From: Pseudomonadota bacterium | Lineage (GTDB): Bacteria > Desulfobacterota > Desulfobulbia > Desulfobulbales > Desulfurivibrionaceae | Direction of reading: 5' to 3' | NCBI GenBank assembly: GCA_018830485.1 | Contig: JAHJRQ010000005.1 | Location: forward strand, 1 to 53,750 | Length of the DNA: 53,750 nucleotides | Shown: in pieces, positions 13,737 through 30,053 of the stretch | Numbering within the stretch: position 1 is the stretch's first letter | Layout of the letters: each line of letters starts with the position of its first letter | Notes under the pieces: generated by a model | Database searches by the model: none | Told to the model about the DNA's origin: nothing | What the model saw: only the letters and a program-made list of their open reading frames with translations | Program-made: the position numbers and the translations under genes

Positions 13737-14906
13737 CTAACTTTCATTCCTGCGCAAAAAGGTCGGACGATCGTAATCCTGCTCGTTCAAGATATTGTTG
13801 GCGTAGGATCTCTGTATGCCGTTGGCCACGGCGCGGCCGACAGCCATGCCTTGCTCCCCTTTCCTGAACGGCAGCGGCTGCGCTGCTGGCTCACGCTTTT
13901 TCGGCATGAGCTGCACCTTGTCCGGCAGCTCCTCGATCTCCTCTACGGTATCGCGGATACCGGTGGCAATAACGGTTACCTGCAGCTCATCGCCCAGATT
14001 CTCGTCAAAGATGACGCCCAGGATGATATTGGCGTCCTCGTGCACCTCCTGGTAGATCTTGGTAGTGGCCTCGGTCACCTCGGGCATGGTCAGGGTCTCG
14101 CGGCTGGCGGAGATATTGACCAAAACCCCTCTGGCGCCGTCGATGCTGATATCCTGCAAAAGCGGGCTGTTGATCGCCATGTTCACCGCTTCCACGGCCC
14201 GGTTTTCCCCCACCCCGTAGCCGGAGCCCATGAGGGCCTGGCCCATCTCGTTCATGATCGCCCGCACGTCGGCAAAGTCGGGGTTGATGTAGCCGGGCAG
14301 GTTGATCAGGTCGGTGATGCCTTTGACCGCCTGAACCAGGACATCGTCTGCCATCTTCATCCCGTCGATGAAACGGGTTCCCTTCTGGCTCAGGGAGATG
14401 AGCCGGTCATTGGGAATGGTGATGATGGTGTCCACATGCTCTTTCAGGTTCTTCCAGCCGAGCTCGGCGTTTTTCATCCGGGCCCTGCCCTCGAAGGCAA
14501 AGGGCTTGGTCACGACACCCACGGTCAGGGCGCCCAGCTCCTTGGCAATCCTGGCCACCACCGGCGCGGCTCCGGTGCCGGTGCCGCCGCCCAGCCCGCA
14601 GGTGACAAAAACCATGTCGCAGTCCTTCAACTGCTTTCTGATTTCGTCGATGGACTCCTCCGCCGCTTCCCGGCCCCTTTCAGGGTTGGCGCCGGCCCCA
14701 AGCCCCTTGGCGACATTCTTGCCAAGCTGCAGCCGGACATCGGCCTTGGATTTTTCCAGATCCTGGATATCGGTGTTGCCGGCGATGAATTCCACCCCGA
14801 GGATATTGCTGTCCACCATGGTGTTGACCGCATTGCCCCCGCCGCCGCCAACGCCAAAAACCCTGATCTTTGCCCGTGATTCTGTTTCCGCGAATTTAAA
14901 AGTCAT
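13737..14906 (-). CDS. ftsZ: Cell division protein FtsZ
   Basis: A 389-aa tubulin-like GTPase that forms the Z-ring. The tubulin signature GGGTGTG lies near residues 106-112 and GGGGGNAVN near 20-28; the T7 loop region NPDFADVR is present. After a short linker the protein ends in the conserved C-terminal peptide YDRPTFLRR, which binds FtsA and other partners. Length is normal. It is the last gene of the dcw cluster; about 220 bases without a clear gene follow before the radical SAM gene. The ATG at 14906 has a GGGAG-type ribosome site. Confidence 0.98.
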   Translation of the reverse strand: MTFKFAETESRAKIRVFGVGGGGGNAVNTMVDSNILGVEFIAGNTDIQDLEKSKADVRLQLGKNVAKGLGAGANPERGREAAEESIDEIRKQLKDCDMVFVTCGLGGGTGTGAAPVVARIAKELGALTVGVVTKPFAFEGRARMKNAELGWKNLKEHVDTIITIPNDRLISLSQKGTRFIDGMKMADDVLVQAVKGITDLINLPGYINPDFADVRAIMNEMGQALMGSGYGVGENRAVEAVNMAINSPLLQDISIDGARGVLVNISASRETLTMPEVTEATTKIYQEVHEDANIILGVIFDENLGDELQVTVIATGIRDTVEEIEELPDKVQLMPKKREPAAQPLPFRKGEQGMAVGRAVANGIQRSYANNILNEQDYDRPTFLRRNES

Positions 14907-14972
14907 ATCCTGCTCTCCCTGTTCAAGGTCATTGACCTGCTCCCAACATCGCCTGGCGCCTGATGAGCGTGT

Positions 14973-16205
14973 TTACACTATCCCCTTAAACCAGTCCTTC
15001 ATCCGACCGGTAAATCTCCCTACCACTCCCCCCTTGGGCCGTTTGAATCTTTCCCCCGGCCCATTCTTCATGCCATAGACAACCAAGCCAACGCCGGTTG
15101 CCCACTGCGGCGTGCCCACCACATCCACTACCCCGCCGATATTTTCCGGACGGCCGATGCGGACCGGCAGGTCAAAAATCTGTTCCGCCAGCTCTTCCAT
15201 GTTGTCCAGCAGGCACGAACCGCCGGTCAACACCATGCCGGCGTTGATCATTTCCTTGTGCTTGGAATCGAGCAGCTCCTGATTGATGAGGGTGAGCATC
15301 TCCTCAACCCGGGGTTCGAGGATCTCTCCCATGACCCTGCGGGAAAGCTTCCGGTTTTTTCTGCCCCCCACGCTGGGAACCTCGATGACCTGATCCTTGT
15401 CGATGAGCGAGGCCAGGGCGCAGCCGTACTCCTCCTTCAGCCTTTCCGCCTCCTTCTGCGGGGTGCGCAGCCCGATGGACAGATCGTTGGTCAGGTTCTG
15501 GCCGCCCAATCCCAAAACAAAAGTATGCTTGATGGTCCCGTCGGCAAAGATCGCCAGATCGGCGGTGCCGCCGCCGATGTCCAGCAGCCCGACCCCCAGC
15601 TCCATTTCTTCCCGGGTCAGGACGGCGCCTGCCGAGGCCAGGGGTTCGAGCACCACATCCGTCACCTGCAACCCGGCGCGGTTGCAGCATTTGACGATGT
15701 TATGCACCGCGGTTGCCGAACCGGTCACAATATGCACATCCGCTTCGAGGCGGACGCCGGTCATGCCGATGGGGTCCTGGATATCGGCCTGGCCGTCCAC
15801 CATGAACTCCTGCGGCAGCACATGGATTACCTCCTGATCCGGCGGGATGGGCACTGCCCGGGCCGCATCCACCACCCGGTCGATGTCGTCCTGCCTTATC
15901 TCGTTATGCTTGATGGCGATCAGGCCGTGGCTGTTGAAGCTCTTGATGTGGCTGCCTGCAATGCCCACATACACCGAACCGATCTCGCAGCCGGCCATGC
16001 GTTCCGCCTCTTCCACCGCCTGCCGGATCGAATGCACGGTGCTCTCGATATTGACCACCACCCCGCGGCGCAGTCCCACCGAGGGATGCCTGCCAATGCC
16101 GATGATATCAATCCGAGTGTCACGGACCTCGCCGACCACCACGCAGATCTTGGTGGTGCCGATATCCAGCCCGACAATCAGATCGCCACGTTCTTCATGT
16201 GCCAT
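14973..16205 (-). CDS. ftsA: Cell division protein FtsA
   Basis: A 410-aa actin-like ATPase that tethers FtsZ to the membrane and signals to septal wall synthesis. The phosphate-binding loop LDIGTTKICVVVGEV lies near the N-terminus and a second actin-family motif LLDIGGGTADLAIF near residue 207. The C-terminal GRFTGRMKDWFKGIV is the usual amphipathic membrane-targeting helix. It is 66 bases upstream of ftsZ. In well-studied species FtsA acts on FtsW-FtsI through FtsQLB or FtsN, which makes the condition of those partners here notable. Confidence 0.97.
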   Translation of the reverse strand: MAHEERGDLIVGLDIGTTKICVVVGEVRDTRIDIIGIGRHPSVGLRRGVVVNIESTVHSIRQAVEEAERMAGCEIGSVYVGIAGSHIKSFNSHGLIAIKHNEIRQDDIDRVVDAARAVPIPPDQEVIHVLPQEFMVDGQADIQDPIGMTGVRLEADVHIVTGSATAVHNIVKCCNRAGLQVTDVVLEPLASAGAVLTREEMELGVGLLDIGGGTADLAIFADGTIKHTFVLGLGGQNLTNDLSIGLRTPQKEAERLKEEYGCALASLIDKDQVIEVPSVGGRKNRKLSRRVMGEILEPRVEEMLTLINQELLDSKHKEMINAGMVLTGGSCLLDNMEELAEQIFDLPVRIGRPENIGGVVDVVGTPQWATGVGLVVYGMKNGPGERFKRPKGGVVGRFTGRMKDWFKGIV

Positions 16206-16353
16206 TTGTTCACCTTTAATCGATCCCGCAACACGTCACGCCGCCGACGGTTATCACACTCCACCCTTTGCTTCTTTGCTGCCGACCGGTGCCCGTTCCC
16301 GCCGAACATGCATTCATGCCCCTGCGCGAAGGTCGGAAGAGATGGCTACCACC

Positions 16354-17238
16354 TCATCCCGCCTCGTCAAATCCCACCAGCACCTGGTTGCGCCCGTAGT
16401 CCATCCTGACATAGGCGGCTTTTTCAAACTCCTTGCTCTTGTACAACTTGTACAGCACCTTGGTCAGCCAGTAATATTTGGTCCCCACATTGCCCGAGCC
16501 CAGATGGATGGGAAAAGGCCGGTCCACCAGATAGAGGATGATATTTTCGTCCCCGTCCACATGGAGTTCCGAGATATTCTGCTTCGGAAGAATGGAACTC
16601 CCCTGTCCCGCGTATTTGATGAACTGCAGGGCCGCGCCCAGTTGCGAATCCTTGAGGCTCCTCGGCCATTCCTCCCTGTTCATCCCGGTGATGAGGGGAT
16701 AGTCCATATCCTCGGGCGGCAGCACCTGGGCAAAGGCTACGCCATTCTGGTCAAGATAGAACAACCCGTTGTCGAGGCTGACAATGGCCACCGGCAACCG
16801 CTCCTTGACAACAATGGTCAAACGGTTGGGCCAGTTCCTTGCGATCTCCGCCGATTCGACCCATGCATGGGCCTCGATCCCAGCCTTCACCCGCTTGATA
16901 TCCAAGGCCAGCAGATTGCTGTGCACATCCACCCCGCTCATCTCGAGGATGAGGTTCTTGGTGGTTCTCCGGCACCCCTCAATGTTGGTGGCGGTTATCT
17001 GGAAAAAATCCGCCCGCCCCAATGCTTTATAAACGATAAAGCCCACTGCGCCAAAGCCTGCCGCCAGCAGCAGAAAACCAACCCCGAGAATGGCCAGTTT
17101 TTTCCTGAGATCGAGGCTCCGGCTTTTCCTGCCGCTCCCGTAGCGCTGCTGTATGGACTTTTCCTTTCGCAAAACCGTAGCTGCCCTTTTTGGTCTGTAT
17201 AGCTTACAGAATATGCACTTCCGGCTCCAGCCACACAC
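16354..17238 (-). CDS. ftsQ: Cell division protein FtsQ (POTRA domain)
   Basis: A bitopic membrane protein of up to 294 aa. A positively charged cytoplasmic stretch is followed by one membrane helix (LAILGVGFLLLAAGFGAVGFIVY, near residues 47-69), a POTRA domain starting FFQITATNIEGC, and the FtsQ beta domain (WPNRLTIVVKERLPVA). It normally bridges FtsL/FtsB and the early divisome. The start is uncertain: the ATG at 17238 lies inside the end of murB (35-base overlap) and its first ~20 residues look unlike FtsQ. A TTG at 17172 preceded by AAAAGGG is a reasonable alternative. A ~150-base gap without a clear gene separates it from ftsA. Confidence 0.88.
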   Translation of the reverse strand: MCGWSRKCIFCKLYRPKRAATVLRKEKSIQQRYGSGRKSRSLDLRKKLAILGVGFLLLAAGFGAVGFIVYKALGRADFFQITATNIEGCRRTTKNLILEMSGVDVHSNLLALDIKRVKAGIEAHAWVESAEIARNWPNRLTIVVKERLPVAIVSLDNGLFYLDQNGVAFAQVLPPEDMDYPLITGMNREEWPRSLKDSQLGAALQFIKYAGQGSSILPKQNISELHVDGDENIILYLVDRPFPIHLGSGNVGTKYYWLTKVLYKLYKSKEFEKAAYVRMDYGRNQVLVGFDEAG

Positions 17239-19609: not shown

Positions 19610-20692
19610 TCAAGCGGCCAACAACGCTATGCTTTTTTCCACGATGGCGGCTGTCGCCTCCGGCCGGGCAAACTCTTTCATTCGTCCCGCCATGGACTGC
19701 AGCCGGGGCACATCGTTCAACAGCCCCCATATAGCCTCCCCCAGCTTCGGTCCATCGAGTTCCCGCTCCTGAAACATCAGGGCTGCCCCGCCGGCCACCA
19801 GAAATGCCGCATTGGTCGTCTGGTGATCATCGGCCGCGTAAGGAAAGGGGATCAAAATCGCCGGCCTGCCCAGCACCGCCAGCTCGGCCAGGGTGGTCGC
19901 CCCGGCCCGGGAGACAACCAGATCCGCATCCCGGTAAGCCGCCGCCATATCGCTGATAAAGGAAGAGACCTGAGCCGTTACCCCTGCCGCAGCGTAAGCC
20001 TTGCGCACCCAATCCTCATCGCTGTTCCCCGTCTGGTGCCGGATCTGAACCGGGTCCCCGGACTGGTTCTGGGCAAAGGCCTCCACCATCAGGGAATTGA
20101 CCCGGTGCGCGCCCTGACTGCCTCCCAAAACCAGCACCGTCTTGCTTGCGACCTGATCCTTCCGCCGGCCTGCCTCCTGGAGCAATTCCGCCCGCACCGG
20201 ATTGCCGGTCAGCACCGCCTTGCCCCGGGGGAAAAAATTCTCGGAGCCGGGGATGGAAATATATACCTGGTCGACGATTTTTCCAAGCATCCTGTTGGCC
20301 ATTCCCGGAATTGAATTCTGCTCATGGATGCAGGTTTTCACCCCCAAGAGCCGTGCCGCCAACACCACCGGCCCGGTCACATAGCCGCCCACCCCCAAAA
20401 CCAACTGCGGCTTGAAGGCGCGGACCAGCCGCAACGCCTGCCAAAGGCTGATGGGAAGCTGGGCCAGGCTCTTGACCGACCCCACAAGCGATTTCCCCTT
20501 CAAGGGCAGACAGGCAATGGCTTTCTTCTCAAAGGCGCGGTCAGCCAGGGTCTTGTTGTCAATGGCCCGGTCCGTGCTGACAAAGAGGACCTTCCCTTGG
20601 GGAAACCGGCGCAGCATCTCTTCGGCCACGGCAATACCGGGAAAAAGATGCCCTCCTGTTCCGCCTCCGGTCACGATCATCCGCATGCGCAT
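19610..20692 (-). CDS. murG: Lipid II synthase (UDP-GlcNAc transferase) MurG
   Basis: A 360-aa GT28 glycosyltransferase that adds GlcNAc to lipid I at the inner face of the membrane. The N-terminal glycine loop GGGTGGHLFPG lies near residues 9-19, and the C-terminal UDP-GlcNAc site shows VVSRAGATTLAEL. Starts at 20692 and 20686 (MRMRM) are both possible behind GGGAAAGGA; longer in-frame extensions are not family-like. It follows a 63-aa CxxC protein by 13 bases, at the place where ftsW is expected. Confidence 0.95.
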   Translation of the reverse strand: MRMRMIVTGGGTGGHLFPGIAVAEEMLRRFPQGKVLFVSTDRAIDNKTLADRAFEKKAIACLPLKGKSLVGSVKSLAQLPISLWQALRLVRAFKPQLVLGVGGYVTGPVVLAARLLGVKTCIHEQNSIPGMANRMLGKIVDQVYISIPGSENFFPRGKAVLTGNPVRAELLQEAGRRKDQVASKTVLVLGGSQGAHRVNSLMVEAFAQNQSGDPVQIRHQTGNSDEDWVRKAYAAAGVTAQVSSFISDMAAAYRDADLVVSRAGATTLAELAVLGRPAILIPFPYAADDHQTTNAAFLVAGGAALMFQERELDGPKLGEAIWGLLNDVPRLQSMAGRMKEFARPEATAAIVEKSIALLAA

Positions 20693-20705
20693 TCCTTTCC
20701 CGACC

Positions 20706-20897
20706 CTAACGCCCGAGGGCCATGATGCCGGTTTGCCCGGCATTTTGGGCGAGCAACCAGCCTTGCGCCCGCTCCATGGTGCTGTGAAAACAGTCCGGGC
20801 AGTATCCGTGGGAAACCCTGGTTTCCTTGCGGGGCTGTTTCTGTATCCAGCCTGACTGACTCTTGGTTTTCTGACACACACAGCACACTGTTTGCAT
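20706..20897 (-). CDS. Small double-CxxC protein in the ftsW position
   Basis: A 63-aa protein with two CxxC pairs, CCVCQKTK near residues 5-12 and HGYCPDC near 30-36, separated by a Trp-containing basic stretch. The arrangement resembles the small zinc-ribbon-like 'CxWC(K)K...SHGxCPxC' module seen alone or at the ends of signalling proteins in deltaproteobacteria; that likeness is recalled, not searched. The ATG at 20897 has GAGGACGGG seven bases upstream, and the gene sits 83 bases after murD and 13 bases before murG on the same strand, so it is very probably co-expressed with the mur genes. No function can be assigned. No membrane segment is seen, so it is not an FtsW remnant. Confidence 0.7.
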   Translation of the reverse strand: MQTVCCVCQKTKSQSGWIQKQPRKETRVSHGYCPDCFHSTMERAQGWLLAQNAGQTGIMALGR

Positions 20898-20980
20898 AAA
20901 CCCGTCCTCGCCCTGTTGTCGCCCCCAAGCCGTGCCCCCTCAGACACGAAGCTTCCGGGCGTTTTTTCCGACCGTTGCCG

Positions 20981-22408
20981 CTAGCGCGCTTCCTGCCCCG
21001 CCAATCTGCTGACCGCCCGGGCAAACACCTCGCCCCGGTGGCTGTAGCTTCTGAACATGTCAAAACTCGCGCAGGCGGGAGAGAGCAACACCGCGTCTCC
21101 CTTCTCCGCCATTGAACTGGCCAGCCGCACCGCCTCGTCCATTTCCGCGGCAAAGGCTATCCGGGTGGTCTCGGCGAAAGCCCTGGCCATTTCTTCCCTT
21201 GCCTCGCCGATCAGAACCATGGCCCGAACCTTTTCCCGCACCAGGGGGCGTAGCATCTCGTACCCCCCGCCCTTGCCACGGCCTCCGGCAATGAGCACCA
21301 CCTGCTGCTTCATGCCGCCCAAGGCGGAATACAACGCCCCGATATTGGTGGCCTTGGAATCGTCGTAGTAGGAGATTCCATTGATCTCATCCACCAGGGA
21401 CAGCCGGTGCGGCAACGGCGCGAATCCGGCCAGGCTCTGCTGAATATCCGCCGGGCTGCACCCCAAGGCCCGGACCGCGAGAATTGCCGCCATGGCGTTT
21501 TCGGTGTTTGGCGCCTGGCCAAGAGGGGTTCCCGCCAATTCGTATTCCTCGGTTTTCTTGCTCGCCTCGCCCTCCGTGACAATGCGAACCTTGGTTCCGC
21601 TGAGGGTTGCCGCCATCCCGGTTTTCGCGCAGGCGCTGTATTGCCGGATTTCGCCCAGCAGCGGCCAGGGGCTCTTTTTTTCGAACTCTTTGCCCAGCCA
21701 TCCGGCAATCACAGGATCGTCGCCGTTGACCACGGCCACGTCGCCAGGCTGCTGGTTTTTAAAGAGCGACATCTTGGAATCGACATAGGCCTCATAGTTG
21801 GCATACCTATCCAGGTGGTCCGGGGTGATATTGAGCAGCACTCCCACCCGGGGGTGGAACTCTCCACCGCTGTCCAGTTGGAAGCTGCTCACCTCAAGAA
21901 CCACCACCTCACATTCCTGGGGCCCGGCAAGATATTCAGCCAGGGGAGTCCCGAGATTGCCCCCCACAAAGACCTTCTTGCCGCTACCGGCCAGCAGATC
22001 GCCGATCAGGGTGGTCACCGTGCTCTTGCCGTTGGTGCCGGTCACCGCCACCAGGGTCCCTTTCAGGAAATCCTTGGCCAGGGCGAGCTCGCCCACCACC
22101 GGGATGCCTTTTTGCCGGGCTGCGGCAAGGGGCGCTATGTCGAGCGGGACGCCCGGGCTTACCAGAATACAATCCGCCGATGTTAATAGCTCAGAGGTAT
22201 GGCCGCCAGTTTCAACAAAAACTCTTTTCTCCTTCAGCCACCGAACCAAGTCTCCTTCAAGGTTCTCCTGGCGGCCACCCTCTGAAACCGATATTTTCAC
22301 ACCCAGATTAAGCAGGAACCGCACCGCGCAAACACCGGACTTGCCAAGACCCACCACGACAACATGGGCTCCGGGCTGCAGTATTTCCTTGAGGTTCCTG
22401 TTCAACAT
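20981..22408 (-). CDS. murD: UDP-N-acetylmuramoylalanine-D-glutamate ligase
   Basis: A 475-aa Mur ligase adding D-Glu to UDP-MurNAc-L-Ala. The N-terminal nucleotide-binding motif VVVVGLGKSGVCAVRF, the P-loop GTNGKSTVTT (near residue 125), and the C-terminal YYDDSKATN signature are present. The start is either ATG 22408 or GTG 22420, four codons upstream; both have only modest ribosome sites. It is followed by the small CxxC gene and not by ftsW. The upstream gap to mraY is about 136 bases and shows no clear gene. Confidence 0.96.
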   Translation of the reverse strand: MLNRNLKEILQPGAHVVVVGLGKSGVCAVRFLLNLGVKISVSEGGRQENLEGDLVRWLKEKRVFVETGGHTSELLTSADCILVSPGVPLDIAPLAAARQKGIPVVGELALAKDFLKGTLVAVTGTNGKSTVTTLIGDLLAGSGKKVFVGGNLGTPLAEYLAGPQECEVVVLEVSSFQLDSGGEFHPRVGVLLNITPDHLDRYANYEAYVDSKMSLFKNQQPGDVAVVNGDDPVIAGWLGKEFEKKSPWPLLGEIRQYSACAKTGMAATLSGTKVRIVTEGEASKKTEEYELAGTPLGQAPNTENAMAAILAVRALGCSPADIQQSLAGFAPLPHRLSLVDEINGISYYDDSKATNIGALYSALGGMKQQVVLIAGGRGKGGGYEMLRPLVREKVRAMVLIGEAREEMARAFAETTRIAFAAEMDEAVRLASSMAEKGDAVLLSPACASFDMFRSYSHRGEVFARAVSRLAGQEAR

Positions 22409-22544
22409 TTCATTTCCCACCCTGTTTTCCTAATACAGCTTGTAACTGTTCAGCAGTGCCGCAGATGCGCGACAGAGGCCTGAAAGCTATACACATCAGT
22501 ATGCGTCAGGCCGATAACAAAGCAGCTGCGGTGCTGCTGGACAG

Positions 22545-25168: not shown

Positions 25169-26764
25169 TTACCAGTTGATCACCGCAGCCTGGGCCGCGG
25201 CTTCAAGCCTGTCATCGAAAAAAAATCTCCCCTCCGGGGTTATCTGATACGTTTCGTGTCCCTTGCCGCACAGCAACACCACATCGCCGGGCAGGGCATG
25301 GCGGATGGTTTCCCTGATCGCCTCCCGGCGGGAGGGGACAATATCATAGCCCCGCGGTGCTTCTCCCCGAAGGATGGTCTCAATCCGCATCCGCGGCAGG
25401 GTGGTTTTTACTATCCCCGCCTCGATGTCGCGCAGGATATCGGCGGCCCGTTCGCTCCTGGGATTATCCGAGGTGAGCACGACAACATCGGCCAACGCGC
25501 CGGCCACCTTACCCATCAGCGGGCGCTTCCCGCGGTCGCGATCCCCGCCGCAGCCGAAAATCACAATCAAGCGGCCGGTGGTCAGGCGACGCATGGTCTG
25601 CAAGACATTGGCCAGCGCGTCCGGAGAATGGGCAAAATCAACAAACACGCTGACCCCTGCCGGGGCAGGGACCCGCTCCAGCCGCCCGGGCGCGGCCTGG
25701 GCCAGGGCCAGGCCATCCACAATCTTTTCCCCGGAAATGCGCAGTGCCACTGCCACCCCCACCGTACCGAGAATATTTTTCAGGTTGAAATTTCCAACCA
25801 GGTCGGAGCGGATCTCCAACTCTCCCGCCGGGGTCGTCAGGCTGGCCACCGTTCCGGCAAGGCTCTCCCGAGCCTCCCGTACGGCCACCTCGGCTTCGCT
25901 CAGGCCGCATTCAATCAGGGTTCTCCCCTTCTTTTTCCCGTAGCCCAAGGATTTGTCTTCCCGCAGTTCAGCCAGCAGCCGCCTCCCCCAGTCGATGCCG
26001 GAGTCGTCATGGCTGTCACAGAGAACCACCGCCGTGCCGTCCTGTTTCAGATACTCGGTAAAGAGCCTTTTTTTGCTCGCGAAATATCCGAGCATATCCC
26101 CATGAAAATCAAGGTGATCGCGGCTCAGGTTGGTGAACAGGGCCACGTCGAAGCTGATCCCCCCCACCCTTTTTTGTTCCAGGGCATGGGAGGAGGTCTC
26201 CATGATCACATGGGTAACGCCGTTTGCCGCCATCTCGGCTAAAATCCGGTGCAGGCTTACCGGATCAGGGGTGGTGAACTGGGCGGCAATTTCCACGGTC
26301 CCATAACGGTAATTCACGGTGCCGATCACCCCGGGCCGGCCGCCGTTTTTTCGGATTATCGATTCAAGGAGATAGGTTGTCGTAGTCTTCCCGTTGGTCC
26401 CGGTTATCCCGATCATGCACATCCGGCGGGCAGGATGTGCATAAAAGTTTGCCGCCGCCTGCCCCAGCGCCTTTGGCGTATCAGCCGTTTCCAGACAGAC
26501 AACCTTGCCATGCTTCCAGCCCCGGCAGCGGTCCTTGCCCACCAGCACCGCGGCGCACCCTTTTTTTACGGCAGCCTCAAGATACTCGTGGCCATCCACG
26601 GTCAAGCCGGGGATGGCGACAAACAACGAGCCCGGGCCGGCCTGGCGGGAATCGGCGGTGATGCTGCGTATCGCAGTATCCTGCAGCATGTCCAGGTTCA
26701 CGACCTCTACCTCCTCGACCAATTTCCGTAACGATACCGCACTAGCGTTGTTGTTTTTCCCCAT
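25169..26764 (-). CDS. murE: UDP-MurNAc-dipeptide ligase, meso-diaminopimelate type
   Basis: A 531-aa Mur ligase. The N-terminal domain shows ITADSRQAGPGSLFVAIPG, then the P-loop GTNGKTTTTYLLE, then the motif SDNPRSE. DNPR is the known signature for adding meso-diaminopimelate and not lysine, so the wall is predicted to be the A1-gamma type. The ATG at 26764 is 17 bases after the ftsI stop; another in-frame start at 26812 would overlap ftsI by 31 bases. Neither has a strong ribosome site. Confidence 0.95.
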   Translation of the reverse strand: MGKNNNASAVSLRKLVEEVEVVNLDMLQDTAIRSITADSRQAGPGSLFVAIPGLTVDGHEYLEAAVKKGCAAVLVGKDRCRGWKHGKVVCLETADTPKALGQAAANFYAHPARRMCMIGITGTNGKTTTTYLLESIIRKNGGRPGVIGTVNYRYGTVEIAAQFTTPDPVSLHRILAEMAANGVTHVIMETSSHALEQKRVGGISFDVALFTNLSRDHLDFHGDMLGYFASKKRLFTEYLKQDGTAVVLCDSHDDSGIDWGRRLLAELREDKSLGYGKKKGRTLIECGLSEAEVAVREARESLAGTVASLTTPAGELEIRSDLVGNFNLKNILGTVGVAVALRISGEKIVDGLALAQAAPGRLERVPAPAGVSVFVDFAHSPDALANVLQTMRRLTTGRLIVIFGCGGDRDRGKRPLMGKVAGALADVVVLTSDNPRSERAADILRDIEAGIVKTTLPRMRIETILRGEAPRGYDIVPSRREAIRETIRHALPGDVVLLCGKGHETYQITPEGRFFFDDRLEAAAQAAVINW

Positions 26765-26781
26765 TCCAGGACCCGGTCCCG

Positions 26782-28812
26782 TTATTGCATCGTTTTCAGG
26801 CGCAGCACACATTGCTCAACGCCCCGCAGGGCAGATCCTGCCAACGGATACTGGCTTGCCACCTGCCCTGAGCCGACAATCTGCAGCCGCACCCCGTAGG
26901 GCTGTAAAACCTGCATCGCCTTGCGCCCGCTCAATCCCCGCACATCGGGCATGATCAGGCCCTGGGGCCCTTGCGCCAAGGCAGCGGGCAGAGCGGATTG
27001 CGCTTGAATCGTTTCCATTTTTTTGTAATAGCCGAGTTCGCGCACAGCCAACTCCTTGGCGGTGGGTGGCTTTGCCTGATTCTGCAGCGCGATTCTCGCC
27101 TGCGGCATCATCTCTTCGGCAAGATGCCGAACCGGCGACTTGGCCTGCGGATCGATATGCGCGCCCTCAAGCACTACTATCATGGCGATTTCAGGGTTGT
27201 CCAGCGGGGCCATACCCAGAAGAATACTCTCCATTACCGCCGGGCCGGCTTTCCCTTGTTCTCCGCCCTCGTGTGCCGGCGGCGGCGCCGCACTGTCGCC
27301 TGGCGGCTTTGCCTGCCCCTCCGGGAAAGGCTCTTTCTGCAACAGCGATTCGATGACGAAAAGATCCGGGCCCGACCCGACAGCCTTCTTCATTTCACTC
27401 CGCATGCCTGCACTCACATCGGGGCGAACGGCAAACTCCCCTATCCCGCGCCGGACCGGCACATCCCACACCTGCTCATCCTGCCAGACCGCCCGGAGAA
27501 CATGGGGAGTCATCACTTGCCCTGCGTTGATCAGCCGGGAAAACGCCGACAGCAGGGCCAAAGGGGTCGCCGTCGAAATAGAATCCTTGTCACCATGCGC
27601 CGGCATGGATGGTATCGTCGGGGGAGGATGCGCCACTAGCCCCCCTTCTTCTTTTTTGATTGCCGGACCGGCATCCGCATCCTCCTTTAAGGAGAACATC
27701 GCCTCGGGCAAATCCACCTCTCCCTTGACTGTCAACCCGATCCTTTCGGCAAAGGCGCTGAACTCGCCACGCCCCACCACGGTCTTGCCAAGGCCAACCC
27801 CCTCCGGGGAAATATACCTGCCGTCCGCCACCATATTCCAGGGGCCATGCTGCATCGCCTCCGGCTCAGGAACGGCCTCGCCGCCCGCAGCCCCGTTCCC
27901 GCCCCCAACAATCCGGCCATCCAATGCAGCCGCCTCCAGAAACAGACGCTCCATCGCGCCAAGATCAAGAATATCCTCAATGGCCCGATTCCTCCGCGCG
28001 TCGGCGCTGAACTCCCAAAATCGATTGGGATCATAATCCGGCAGGCTGGCCATGCCGACAATCTCTCCGGTGGCCGGGACCATGATCACCGCCACTCCGG
28101 CTTTTGCCTCCGTGCTGTGCACCAGACCCGCGAGTTTCTGCTCCAGAGTGTTCTGGAGATGGCTGTCAAGGGTCAGAATGAGGCTTGCGCTGTCACTTCC
28201 TTCGGCTATTTTCCTGCTGACTCCGGCGGCTGCCAGCCTCGGGTCATACACCCCGCCGCCCCGGAGAACACTGTCATAATAAAACTCAACCCCGGCCAGC
28301 CCCTGTTCATCCTTTAAAAATCCTATGACATGGGCGCCAAGCTGGTTGCCCGGATAAAATCGCTGCACCTGATTGATGCGGTACACCCCTTTCAGGTTAA
28401 GGTCCGCGATTTTCACCGCTTTCTCGCGACTCAAATCCCTGCCGAGCCAGGCAAAACTTCTTTCCCCCTTCAGGGCGGAGAGAACATTTTTTTCATCAAG
28501 TCCGAGAATCTTTGCAACCTCACGGGCGACCTTCTCGGGCGCCTCAAGCTCCAATGGCCTGGCGTAGAGGGAACTGCGCTGAAAACTCACTGCCAGCTCC
28601 ATGAAATTCCGGTCATAGATGTTTCTCCGGCCGCCACCTTGCACGGCGCTGACCTGTTCATCCTTTTGCCTGTCTCCCTGCGCCTGTTGACCGCTTTCCC
28701 CAAAAAAATGACTTTTTATGGCAATCACGGCAAACACCGCCGCCACCGACAAGAGAATAACTCCCACCATGAGAGGGCGCCGGTCTTTCCCCTCAATTCC
28801 CCGCCTCATCAT
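26782..28812 (-). CDS. FtsI-like class B penicillin-binding protein lacking its active site
   Basis: A 676-aa protein at the ftsI locus. A membrane helix (about 14-33), a PBP dimerisation domain (IYDRNFMELAVS; NQLGAHVIGFL; LAGVEFYYDS) and the start of the transpeptidase domain (MVPATGEIVGMASLPDYDPNRFW) are clear. Where functional FtsI has EPGSTFKP, this protein has DLGAMERL: the nucleophile Ser is Ala286 and the catalytic Lys is Arg289. Where KSSNVG (SxN) is expected it has KTVVGR (from 343), and no KTG(T) motif follows. A C-terminal PASTA-like domain (PDVRGLSGRKAM onward, near 615) is kept. The frame is open throughout. It should bind partners but not cross-link peptidoglycan. The double ATG at 28812/28809 has AGGA upstream and lies seven bases after ftsL. 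Confidence 0.9.
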   Translation of the reverse strand: MMRRGIEGKDRRPLMVGVILLSVAAVFAVIAIKSHFFGESGQQAQGDRQKDEQVSAVQGGGRRNIYDRNFMELAVSFQRSSLYARPLELEAPEKVAREVAKILGLDEKNVLSALKGERSFAWLGRDLSREKAVKIADLNLKGVYRINQVQRFYPGNQLGAHVIGFLKDEQGLAGVEFYYDSVLRGGGVYDPRLAAAGVSRKIAEGSDSASLILTLDSHLQNTLEQKLAGLVHSTEAKAGVAVIMVPATGEIVGMASLPDYDPNRFWEFSADARRNRAIEDILDLGAMERLFLEAAALDGRIVGGGNGAAGGEAVPEPEAMQHGPWNMVADGRYISPEGVGLGKTVVGRGEFSAFAERIGLTVKGEVDLPEAMFSLKEDADAGPAIKKEEGGLVAHPPPTIPSMPAHGDKDSISTATPLALLSAFSRLINAGQVMTPHVLRAVWQDEQVWDVPVRRGIGEFAVRPDVSAGMRSEMKKAVGSGPDLFVIESLLQKEPFPEGQAKPPGDSAAPPPAHEGGEQGKAGPAVMESILLGMAPLDNPEIAMIVVLEGAHIDPQAKSPVRHLAEEMMPQARIALQNQAKPPTAKELAVRELGYYKKMETIQAQSALPAALAQGPQGLIMPDVRGLSGRKAMQVLQPYGVRLQIVGSGQVASQYPLAGSALRGVEQCVLRLKTMQ

Positions 28813-28819
28813 GCCGGTC

Positions 28820-29164
28820 CTATGGCCTTCGCAACTGCTTCGCGGAAGGCTGGTACAATCCCAGCCCTCCTGCCGCAGCTTCGATTTTTTCCTGTTGCAG
28901 GAGCGCATCCTTTTCCGCGGCGAGCGCCATATTAGCCGCAACGAGTTCGGCTTTTTCCTGCTGGCCCTTGCCAAGCCTGCCAAGCCCGTCCCGCAAGGCA
29001 ACGCCAAACCAGAGACTGCTGACTACCCCCAACAGCATGGCGACAACCGCAATTGCCCCGATGATCTTGAACGGCTGTTCCCGATCCGATCCGCCCGTCC
29101 GCCTGCCGGCAACCTTCTGCCTGTTGCCGGAGGTGCTGGAATATTTTTTTGCGTAATCGCGCAT
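28820..29164 (-). CDS. ftsL: FtsL-like cell division protein
   Basis: A 114-aa bitopic protein: a basic cytoplasmic N-terminus, one membrane helix (FKIIGAIAVVAMLLGVVSSLWF, near residues 32-53), and a heptad-rich coiled coil rich in Glu, Gln and Lys. Sequence identity in this family is low, so the call rests on topology, size and position between rsmH and ftsI. The ATG at 29164 is one base after the rsmH stop, behind GAGGAAG. FtsL normally links FtsQ/FtsB to FtsW-FtsI. Confidence 0.82.
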   Translation of the reverse strand: MRDYAKKYSSTSGNRQKVAGRRTGGSDREQPFKIIGAIAVVAMLLGVVSSLWFGVALRDGLGRLGKGQQEKAELVAANMALAAEKDALLQQEKIEAAAGGLGLYQPSAKQLRRP

Positions 29165-29165
29165 C

Positions 29166-30053
29166 TTACGTTCTTCCTCTTGCCGCAACCCGCAGCTTGG
29201 CGCTTCTTGCCCTGGGATTGCGCAGACACTCAGCGCGGCCAGGGGTTAGGGGCTTCGGGGTGACGACCTCGAGCAGGGGATTTTCCCGGAAGGCCTGCTT
29301 CACCAGACGATCCTCCAAGGAATGGAAGGAGATGACGCAAAATCTTGCCCCTGGCGCGAGCAGGGTGGCGCCATCGGCCAGAATTCGTTCAAGGCTGTCC
29401 AGCTCGCGGTTTACCGCGATGCGCAACGCCTGAAACACCTTGGTGGCCACATGGATTTTCTTGGGATGAAACCGCTTGGGAATGGCTTGGTCCACCAGGG
29501 CGACAAGCTGATCGGTGGAAACGATCTTCTCTTTCCGCCGTGCCTCGACAATCTCTTCGGCAATCCTTCTCGCCTGACGCTCTTCGCCATAATAGAAAAA
29601 AATATCCGCCAGCTCTTCCTCGGAGGCCTCGTTGACAAGCTCGGCCGCCGTGGTCTTCTGGCGCTGGTCCATTCGCATATCAAGGGGCTCGCTGCCTTTA
29701 AAGCTGAAGCCGCGGCCGCTTGCATCGAGCTGCAAAGAAGAAAGACCCAGATCGAGCAGCAGGCCGTCAATTGTGCCAATGCCAAGCTCCATCAGGGTCT
29801 CCTTTATCGAGGCAAAATTTTCATGCACAAAACGTACACGGCCCGAAAACCGGGCCAGCCGTTCCTGCGCCAGGGTCAGAGCCGCAGCATCCCAGTCAAA
29901 GCCAACAACCCGGCCCGTGGGACCACACGCCTCAAGAATCCCTTCCGTATGCCCTCCCAGCCCAAGATTGCCGTCAACATAAACACCTCCATCCACCGGG
30001 GCCAGACAGGCTACCACTTCCTCGAGCATGACCGGGAGATGCGAGGGCTGCAT
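29166..30053 (-). CDS. rsmH: 16S rRNA (cytosine(1402)-N4)-methyltransferase
   Basis: A 295-aa SAM methyltransferase (MraW) that modifies C1402 of 16S rRNA. It begins SHLPVMLEEVV and has the SAM motif VDGNLGLGGHTEGIL, the family signatures LLLDLGLSSLQLD and GFSFKGSEPLDMRMD, and C-terminal ISFHSLEDRLVK. Length is normal. It starts six bases after the mraZ stop and is followed one base later by ftsL, so the first genes of the cluster are tightly coupled. Confidence 0.97.
   Translation of the reverse strand: MQPSHLPVMLEEVVACLAPVDGGVYVDGNLGLGGHTEGILEACGPTGRVVGFDWDAAALTLAQERLARFSGRVRFVHENFASIKETLMELGIGTIDGLLLDLGLSSLQLDASGRGFSFKGSEPLDMRMDQRQKTTAAELVNEASEEELADIFFYYGEERQARRIAEEIVEARRKEKIVSTDQLVALVDQAIPKRFHPKKIHVATKVFQALRIAVNRELDSLERILADGATLLAPGARFCVISFHSLEDRLVKQAFRENPLLEVVTPKPLTPGRAECLRNPRARSAKLRVAARGRT

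Follow-up and report, generated by a model that had tools for sequence, protein, structure and literature searches.

An FtsI without catalytic motifs and the loss of FtsW suggest a dismantled septal synthase across a Gram-negative order

We report that the gene at the ftsI position of a bacterium from a sulfur-cycling order that we take to be the Desulfobulbales encodes a full-length class B penicillin-binding protein (PBP) lacking the motifs for transpeptidation, that these motifs are likewise missing from all aligned genomes of the order, and that the source genome has no FtsW. We consider it probable that the septal FtsW-FtsI synthase was dismantled in the ancestor of the order, FtsI being kept as a non-catalytic scaffold while another synthase was recruited. 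A more specific version seems likely as well, if a little less so: the synthase was lost as a whole at the root of this Gram-negative order, possibly again elsewhere in the phylum, and FtsI persists as a selected pseudoenzyme (hereafter pseudo-FtsI) driving a septum that class A PBPs or RodA-PBP2 would make.

Results

The ftsI position encodes a full-length protein without transpeptidase motifs

The window, that is, the whole stretch of DNA that was analyzed, spans 53,750 nucleotides of contig JAHJRQ010000005.1. On its minus strand, an uninterrupted frame of 676 codons plus stop runs from 28812 down to 26782 and was assigned to pseudo-ftsI, a dead class B PBP gene, by frame, Pfam, phmmer and an AlphaFold2 (AF2) model. 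The gene lies between rsmH-ftsL and murE in the dcw cluster, as expected for septal FtsI. Its neighbors, all on the minus strand, are rsmH (mraW; 29166..30053; PF01795, 348 bits), an ftsL-like gene for a small protein with a hydrophobic stretch (28820..29165; assigned by position and inspection, without a Pfam match) and murE (25169..26812; assigned by position and Mur ligase domains), whose true start may lie slightly downstream of 26812. Further along the same strand, ftsQ, ftsA and ftsZ are retained (13737..17238; Pfam). A single long frame of 982-1074 aa covers murE and murF in several order genomes as well as in two families from outside the order (L370, L371, L383, L384, L451 and L453), which suggests a fused MurE-MurF.

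Pfam recognizes PBP_dimer (PF03717, 38.5 bits against a cut-off of 24.4), Transpeptidase (PF00905, in three pieces, 42.7 bits) and PASTA (PF03793, 29.3 bits) in the protein, the last two also above their cut-offs. An N-terminal hydrophobic helix (residues 12-36; 28705..28779, minus strand), present in the AF2 secondary structure and inferred to act as a membrane anchor, precedes the pedestal or PBP_dimer region (residues 60-205; 28198..28635, minus strand), a transpeptidase-fold domain without active site (residues 206-600; 27013..28197, minus strand) and the PASTA domain (residues 618-676; 26785..26961, minus strand). An earlier sequence-only reading of this DNA had described the intact frame and the retention of helix, dimerization domain and PASTA tail, and was right on each count; it had left the strand unstated.

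At the SxxK site, DLGAMERL (residues 283-290; 27943..27966, minus strand) replaces EPGSTFKP, with Ala286 (codon 27957-27955) for the serine and Arg289 (codon 27948-27946) for the lysine. The phmmer alignment to P. aeruginosa FtsI places residue 286 opposite 294 and residue 289 opposite 297, Ser294 being the catalytic serine of that enzyme as named in a PDB title; the multiple alignment agrees, so that the substitution noticed in the sequence-only reading stands. Its assignment of KTVVGR as the replacement of SSN has to be corrected: the triplet aligned to SSN is Ser335-Pro336-Glu337 (27802..27810, minus strand), and KTVVGR begins at residue 343, eight residues too far. There is no KTG in the protein, again as first read; in the alignment and the AF2 model, a Gly/Pro-rich stretch (residues ~493-525; 27238..27336, minus strand) occupies the place where the KTG strand and loop are expected. 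An intact SxxK/SxN/KTG set elsewhere in the protein would have refuted the pseudoenzyme reading; it was looked for in the window protein and not found.

The motifs are absent throughout the order

Orthologues of pseudo-FtsI were identified in 55 of 58 genomes, source genome included, and in 143 of the 144 genomes of a class sample (at least 90% completeness), all of which belong to the same order; the protein is retained over 15 family codes. We aligned one ftsI-position protein per genome for 157 of 163 order genomes with 30 outgroup class B proteins from elsewhere in the phylum, 29 of them FtsI-like and one an MrdA (L221, from G248) that was counted in the motif tallies and left out of the conservation comparison described below. 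The order genomes left out were G017, G025, G053 and G159 (no match), G030 (C-terminal part only) and G133, as were the fragments L062, L063, L065 and L066, the PBP2 locus L064 and the extra stretches L334 and L335. Short proteins of 385-512 aa make up six of the 157 rows (L024, L059, L060, L061, L318 and L331), and in two rows (L060 and L321) the SxxK columns fall in a gap.

An aligned SxxK is found in 0/157 order genomes as compared with 30/30 outgroup class B PBPs, the S and N of SxN occur together in 4/157 as compared with 29/30, and no order genome (0/157) has T/S-G at the KTG columns. Even a K/R/H-T/S-G string anywhere near the KTG place is limited to two of the 157, as an unaligned KSG or RSG, while all 30 outgroup proteins have one. 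Every order genome in the alignment lacks the catalytic motifs where they would be expected.

Motif-like strings do occur at other places. From the transpeptidase part onward, 11 of the 157 order proteins contain K/R-T/S-G-T/S and five contain G-S-x-x-K-(P/I/L/V), one protein (L033) having both types. An S-x-x-K string falls in the columns around the active-site helix in two proteins (L038 and L320), by eye about one helical turn past the catalytic place. Of the 80 named loci of the genome collection, a GSxxK string is present in 75; those without it (L097-L101) are titled Deltaproteobacteria (three), proteobacterium and Desulfobulbaceae.

Close relatives with an intact SxxK would have spoken against a pseudoenzyme in the source genome; we looked for them, and none has an intact SxxK at that place. 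Assembly error, chance and recent decay can be excluded because orthologues across the order also lack the aligned SxxK.

FtsW is missing and a single SEDS-class B pair remains

In the window, murD (20981..22420, minus strand; Mur ligase domains and MurD N-terminal models) and murG (19610..20947, minus strand; PF03033 and PF04101) are 33 bases apart. Intact relatives carry a SEDS gene at this junction (20948..20980); in the window, judging from the sequence and the comparison of dcw clusters, it holds no ftsW. The source genome encodes one SEDS protein at E<=1, which scores 424.1 against a RodA cut-off of 336.7 (above) and 298.8 against an FtsW cut-off of 337.5 (below). Its one intact class B PBP at E<=10 is MrdA (TIGR03423 mrdA, 707 bits). 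A search of the genome for a second intact class B PBP, as the sequence-only reading had suggested, returned only this MrdA/PBP2 besides pseudo-FtsI, with no hidden second enzyme at E<=10. The source genome is without FtsW, and RodA and MrdA are its only SEDS-class B PBP pair.

The class sample gives matching counts: exactly one strong class B transpeptidase (PF00905 at E<=1e-44) in 141 of 144 genomes and none in three, and exactly one SEDS protein (PF01098 at E<=1e-20) in the same 141 and none in the same three. No genome of the sample has two SEDS proteins or two strong class B transpeptidases (0/144). The SEDS and class B genes are often close together on one contig, an impression for which we give no count. 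Typing of the pair with NCBIfam was limited to the source genome. The three genomes with neither RodA nor MrdA at these thresholds (G058, G105 and G159) may reflect real loss or assembly gaps; G159 has a PBP2-like frame cut by a contig end (L388).

Apart from RodA and MrdA, the enzymes found to remain in the source genome comprise two class A PBPs that carry SxxK- and KTG-type motifs, together with a D-Ala-D-Ala carboxypeptidase and three YkuD hits. One class A PBP (L002) is of the PBP1A family, with PF00912 and PF00905. The other (L003:190-2814) is large and atypical, with 874 aa, a weak PF00905 match (43 bits) and SSTMKP and SGKTGT strings; matches with frames of ~950 aa resembling it recur in the family. 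A second PF00905 match above 100 bits with a PBP1A-size frame is present in 31 of 32 relatives (not in G016), and a strong class B match in 30 of 32 (not in G003 and G012, which are 75% and 88% complete).

The active site of FtsI is gone and its partner FtsW deleted; the septal wall must therefore be built some other way. By inference, and without an experiment to support it, the septal synthase would most likely be a class A PBP of the bifunctional type; RodA-MrdA would come second. We favor the class A PBP because of the analogy with C. difficile, where, as described in the accessible portion of PMC10693644, vegetative division depends on the class A PBP1 and RodA-PBP2 is the elongation pair. 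The same division of labor argues against RodA-MrdA building both side wall and septum, with pseudo-FtsI as an adaptor bringing the pair to the Z-ring. That reading nonetheless remains possible, if tentative, given that no other SEDS-class B PBP pair exists in the source genome, that the pair adjoins mreD there, and that nearly all genomes of the class sample have a single SEDS protein and a single strong class B enzyme; the three genomes showing neither gene count against it, unless they are assembly gaps. A third reading, in which YkuD L,D-transpeptidases make the septal cross-links on glycan strands supplied by RodA or a class A PBP, could draw on the three YkuD hits, but we regard it as improbable with motif-bearing class A PBPs present in the same genome.

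A similar state is seen elsewhere in the phylum

Among 141 genomes of the phylum outside the order, strong class B transpeptidases number at least two in 108 and one in 33, and SEDS proteins at least two in 110, one in 29 and none in 2. Of the 29 single-SEDS genomes, 27 are likewise limited to a single strong class B enzyme. All counts outside the source genome rest on thresholds; G224, for instance, is counted with one strong class B enzyme, yet has an intact FtsI. The single counts outside the order are not all losses, because the dcw cluster of G176 and of G177 still contains FtsI and a SEDS gene, and G224 and G170 have an intact FtsI; some may be assembly gaps. In G176 and G177, no strong class B or SEDS match was seen other than those at L437 and L429, respectively, perhaps the opposite loss.

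We examined the ftsI place (rsmH to murE) in genomes from outside the order that have a single SEDS protein; in G267, G244 and G187 it was recognized from a profile search and from position rather than by BLAST. The proteins found there form a graded series. Family f28 has a dead FtsI of 643 aa between rsmH and murE, G248, G293 and G271 have proteins of 538-569 aa in which SxxK and KTG are absent by eye, and shortened proteins occur in G292 (457 aa) and G187 (a 440 aa frame). Families f35 and f65 have only stubs of 248-329 aa; these (L374, L375, L376, L378 and L379) show a hydrophobic start and a PASTA-like tail mostly below the Pfam cut-off. Pfam places PASTA above its cut-off in f28, G293, G271 and G218 and below it in G292, G182, G289 and G267, and gives no match in G248, G244 and G187. 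No protein was seen at the ftsI place in f39 or in G222 of f59. With stubs in f35 and f65 and none seen in f39 or f59, the pedestal or the whole protein is therefore not needed everywhere.

Across 55 dcw loci, a SEDS gene is present in 29 of 32 intact stretches, the other three stopping at contig ends, and in none of the 23 FtsI-dead loci, 12 of which span murD-murG. A tree of seven dcw proteins requires three state changes (shuffled mean 17.9; 0/500 as low): one for the order together with f75, f76, f40, f66 and f72 (support 85, not starred), one for f28 beside the intact f21 (support 99) and one for f35 with f65. A single clade for all 23 dead loci is not rejected by the AU test (p 0.206). 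The dcw proteins were used in place of TypA, which was dropped as a species tree: 44 of 68 genomes passed the cut-off, and the identities suggest mixed types.

Selection maintains the protein outside its former active site

Compared with seven genus members, the window gene has an overall dN/dS of 0.16-0.23, with 0.00-0.04 in the pedestal and 0.00-0.08 in PASTA, rising to 0.28-0.46 in the former SxxK-SxN region and 0.38-0.59 in the KTG region. Conservation over the order, compared between 113 thinned rows and 24 intact FtsI, follows a related pattern. Intact FtsI is the more strongly conserved everywhere except in PASTA (order 2.06, intact 2.08 bits): the values are 1.83 and 2.31 bits for the pedestal, 1.16 and 2.00 for the N-terminal helix, 1.21 and 3.03 for the SxxK helix and 0.77 and 2.80 for the KTG segment. 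We infer that the drop in the N-terminal helix fits a lost contact with FtsW. Pseudo-FtsI is under strong purifying selection, relaxed at the former active site.

A functionless, decaying relic would account for the stubs in f35 and f65, for the lack of a visible protein in f39 and f59 and for the faster evolution of the active-site region, but it can hardly be maintained for a protein kept over 15 family codes, with a pedestal this constrained, a PASTA domain as conserved as in intact FtsI and no internal stop in the orthologue frames among the matches listed. The proposal that this is a full-length pseudoenzyme, selected and not decaying, made from the window sequence alone, is supported by the order-wide conservation, the dN/dS values and the structure model.

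The transpeptidase fold is predicted to be intact

The AF2 model of the window protein (70-row alignment) has a pLDDT of 82.5 and a pTM of 0.76. It contains a helix at residues 285-302, the start of which would carry the serine; pLDDT falls below 50 in two stretches, residues 389-409 and residues 497-508, the second of them close to where the KTG loop would be. Relatives with solved structures are FtsI/PBP3 and SpoVD: in VIA-align, SpoVD (7rcz_B) scores Z 37.7, with an rmsd of 4.3 over 425 residues, and FtsI within the FtsWIQBL complexes 8bh1 and 8p1u scores Z 34.1 and 33.8. Whole-length TM-scores are modest, at 0.45-0.51 by query among the matches listed. The transpeptidase fold and cleft region of pseudo-FtsI are thus predicted to be intact, which might allow for a newly gained active site in a protein that is still an enzyme, but we give this very little credence, as the cleft has no conserved residue likely to serve as a nucleophile: among S, C, T, K, H, D, E, Y and N at residues 264-600, only N275, D367, N429 and H437 exceed 60% conservation, and three of the four are common to intact FtsI.

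Discussion

We propose that in the ancestor of the order FtsI became a pseudoenzyme and its glycosyltransferase partner FtsW was lost. Judging from conservation and synteny, and in the absence of localization or partner data, pseudo-FtsI may act as a membrane-anchored scaffold and regulator of the divisome. It would dock on FtsL/FtsQ via the conserved pedestal, its PASTA domain may sense septal peptidoglycan, and it could thereby recruit or activate the real septal synthase, each of these steps being an inference. The sequence-only reading had arrived at a structural or regulatory divisome part with cross-linking by another enzyme; genome content fits this proposal, with MrdA as the only other class B PBP alongside the two class A PBPs and the three YkuD hits, while the function itself is not shown. 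That reading missed the absence of FtsW, the order-wide state and the recurrence elsewhere in the phylum.

Absence of ftsW, together with zipA and ftsN, has been described in two Ca. Electrothrix and two Desulfobulbus genomes in a study of Desulfobulbaceae (PMC7873302) which, in the sections available to us, treats FtsI as a normal recruited protein and notes neither its missing active site nor the order-wide extent. Our searches of the open-licence literature, considering the best matches, found no title or abstract that notes a dead FtsI. What was known, so far as these partial sources tell, is the absence of FtsW in those four Desulfobulbaceae; the coupling of an order-wide dead FtsI to the loss of FtsW was not found in our searches of the open-licence literature. 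By inference, the loss of FtsW-FtsI would cover cable bacteria too.

The worked-out exception to septal synthesis by this pair that we came across is clostridial, and the order described here is a large Gram-negative group that seemingly divides without either activity. It would separate, in nature, the scaffold function of FtsI from its chemistry, and the series from full-length dead protein to shortened protein to stub offers a way of asking what the divisome needs from FtsI. An untested prediction is that members of the order are indifferent to FtsI-specific beta-lactams.

The dcw position is occupied by FtsI/PBP3 in P. aeruginosa and E. coli, by SpoVD in C. difficile and by PBP2x in S. pneumoniae, and PBP2x and SpoVD have a PASTA tail. 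Pseudo-FtsI shares with all of these the dcw position, N-terminal helix, pedestal and transpeptidase fold, and with PBP2x and SpoVD also the PASTA tail; in contrast to them, it is without SxxK, SxN and KTG and has no FtsW partner. The nearest parallel is the divisome of C. difficile, in which, from what the available text of two papers conveys, the class B PBP3 acts non-catalytically and the dcw-encoded SpoVD/SpoVE serve sporulation (PMC10693644; PMC12539705). Both C. difficile and the order manage vegetative division without an FtsW/FtsI pair, as inferred from the motifs for the order, and a class A PBP is present in the source genome too (L002). The order differs in that FtsW is absent and FtsI itself is dead, in a Gram-negative setting and at the level of an order. 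In B. subtilis, a catalytic mutant of PBP 2B indicates, in the excerpt accessible to us, that the structural divisome role is separable from catalysis (PMC5656894); there the separation was made in a laboratory mutant that needs PBP 3, whereas in the order it is fixed in nature, with FtsW missing as well.
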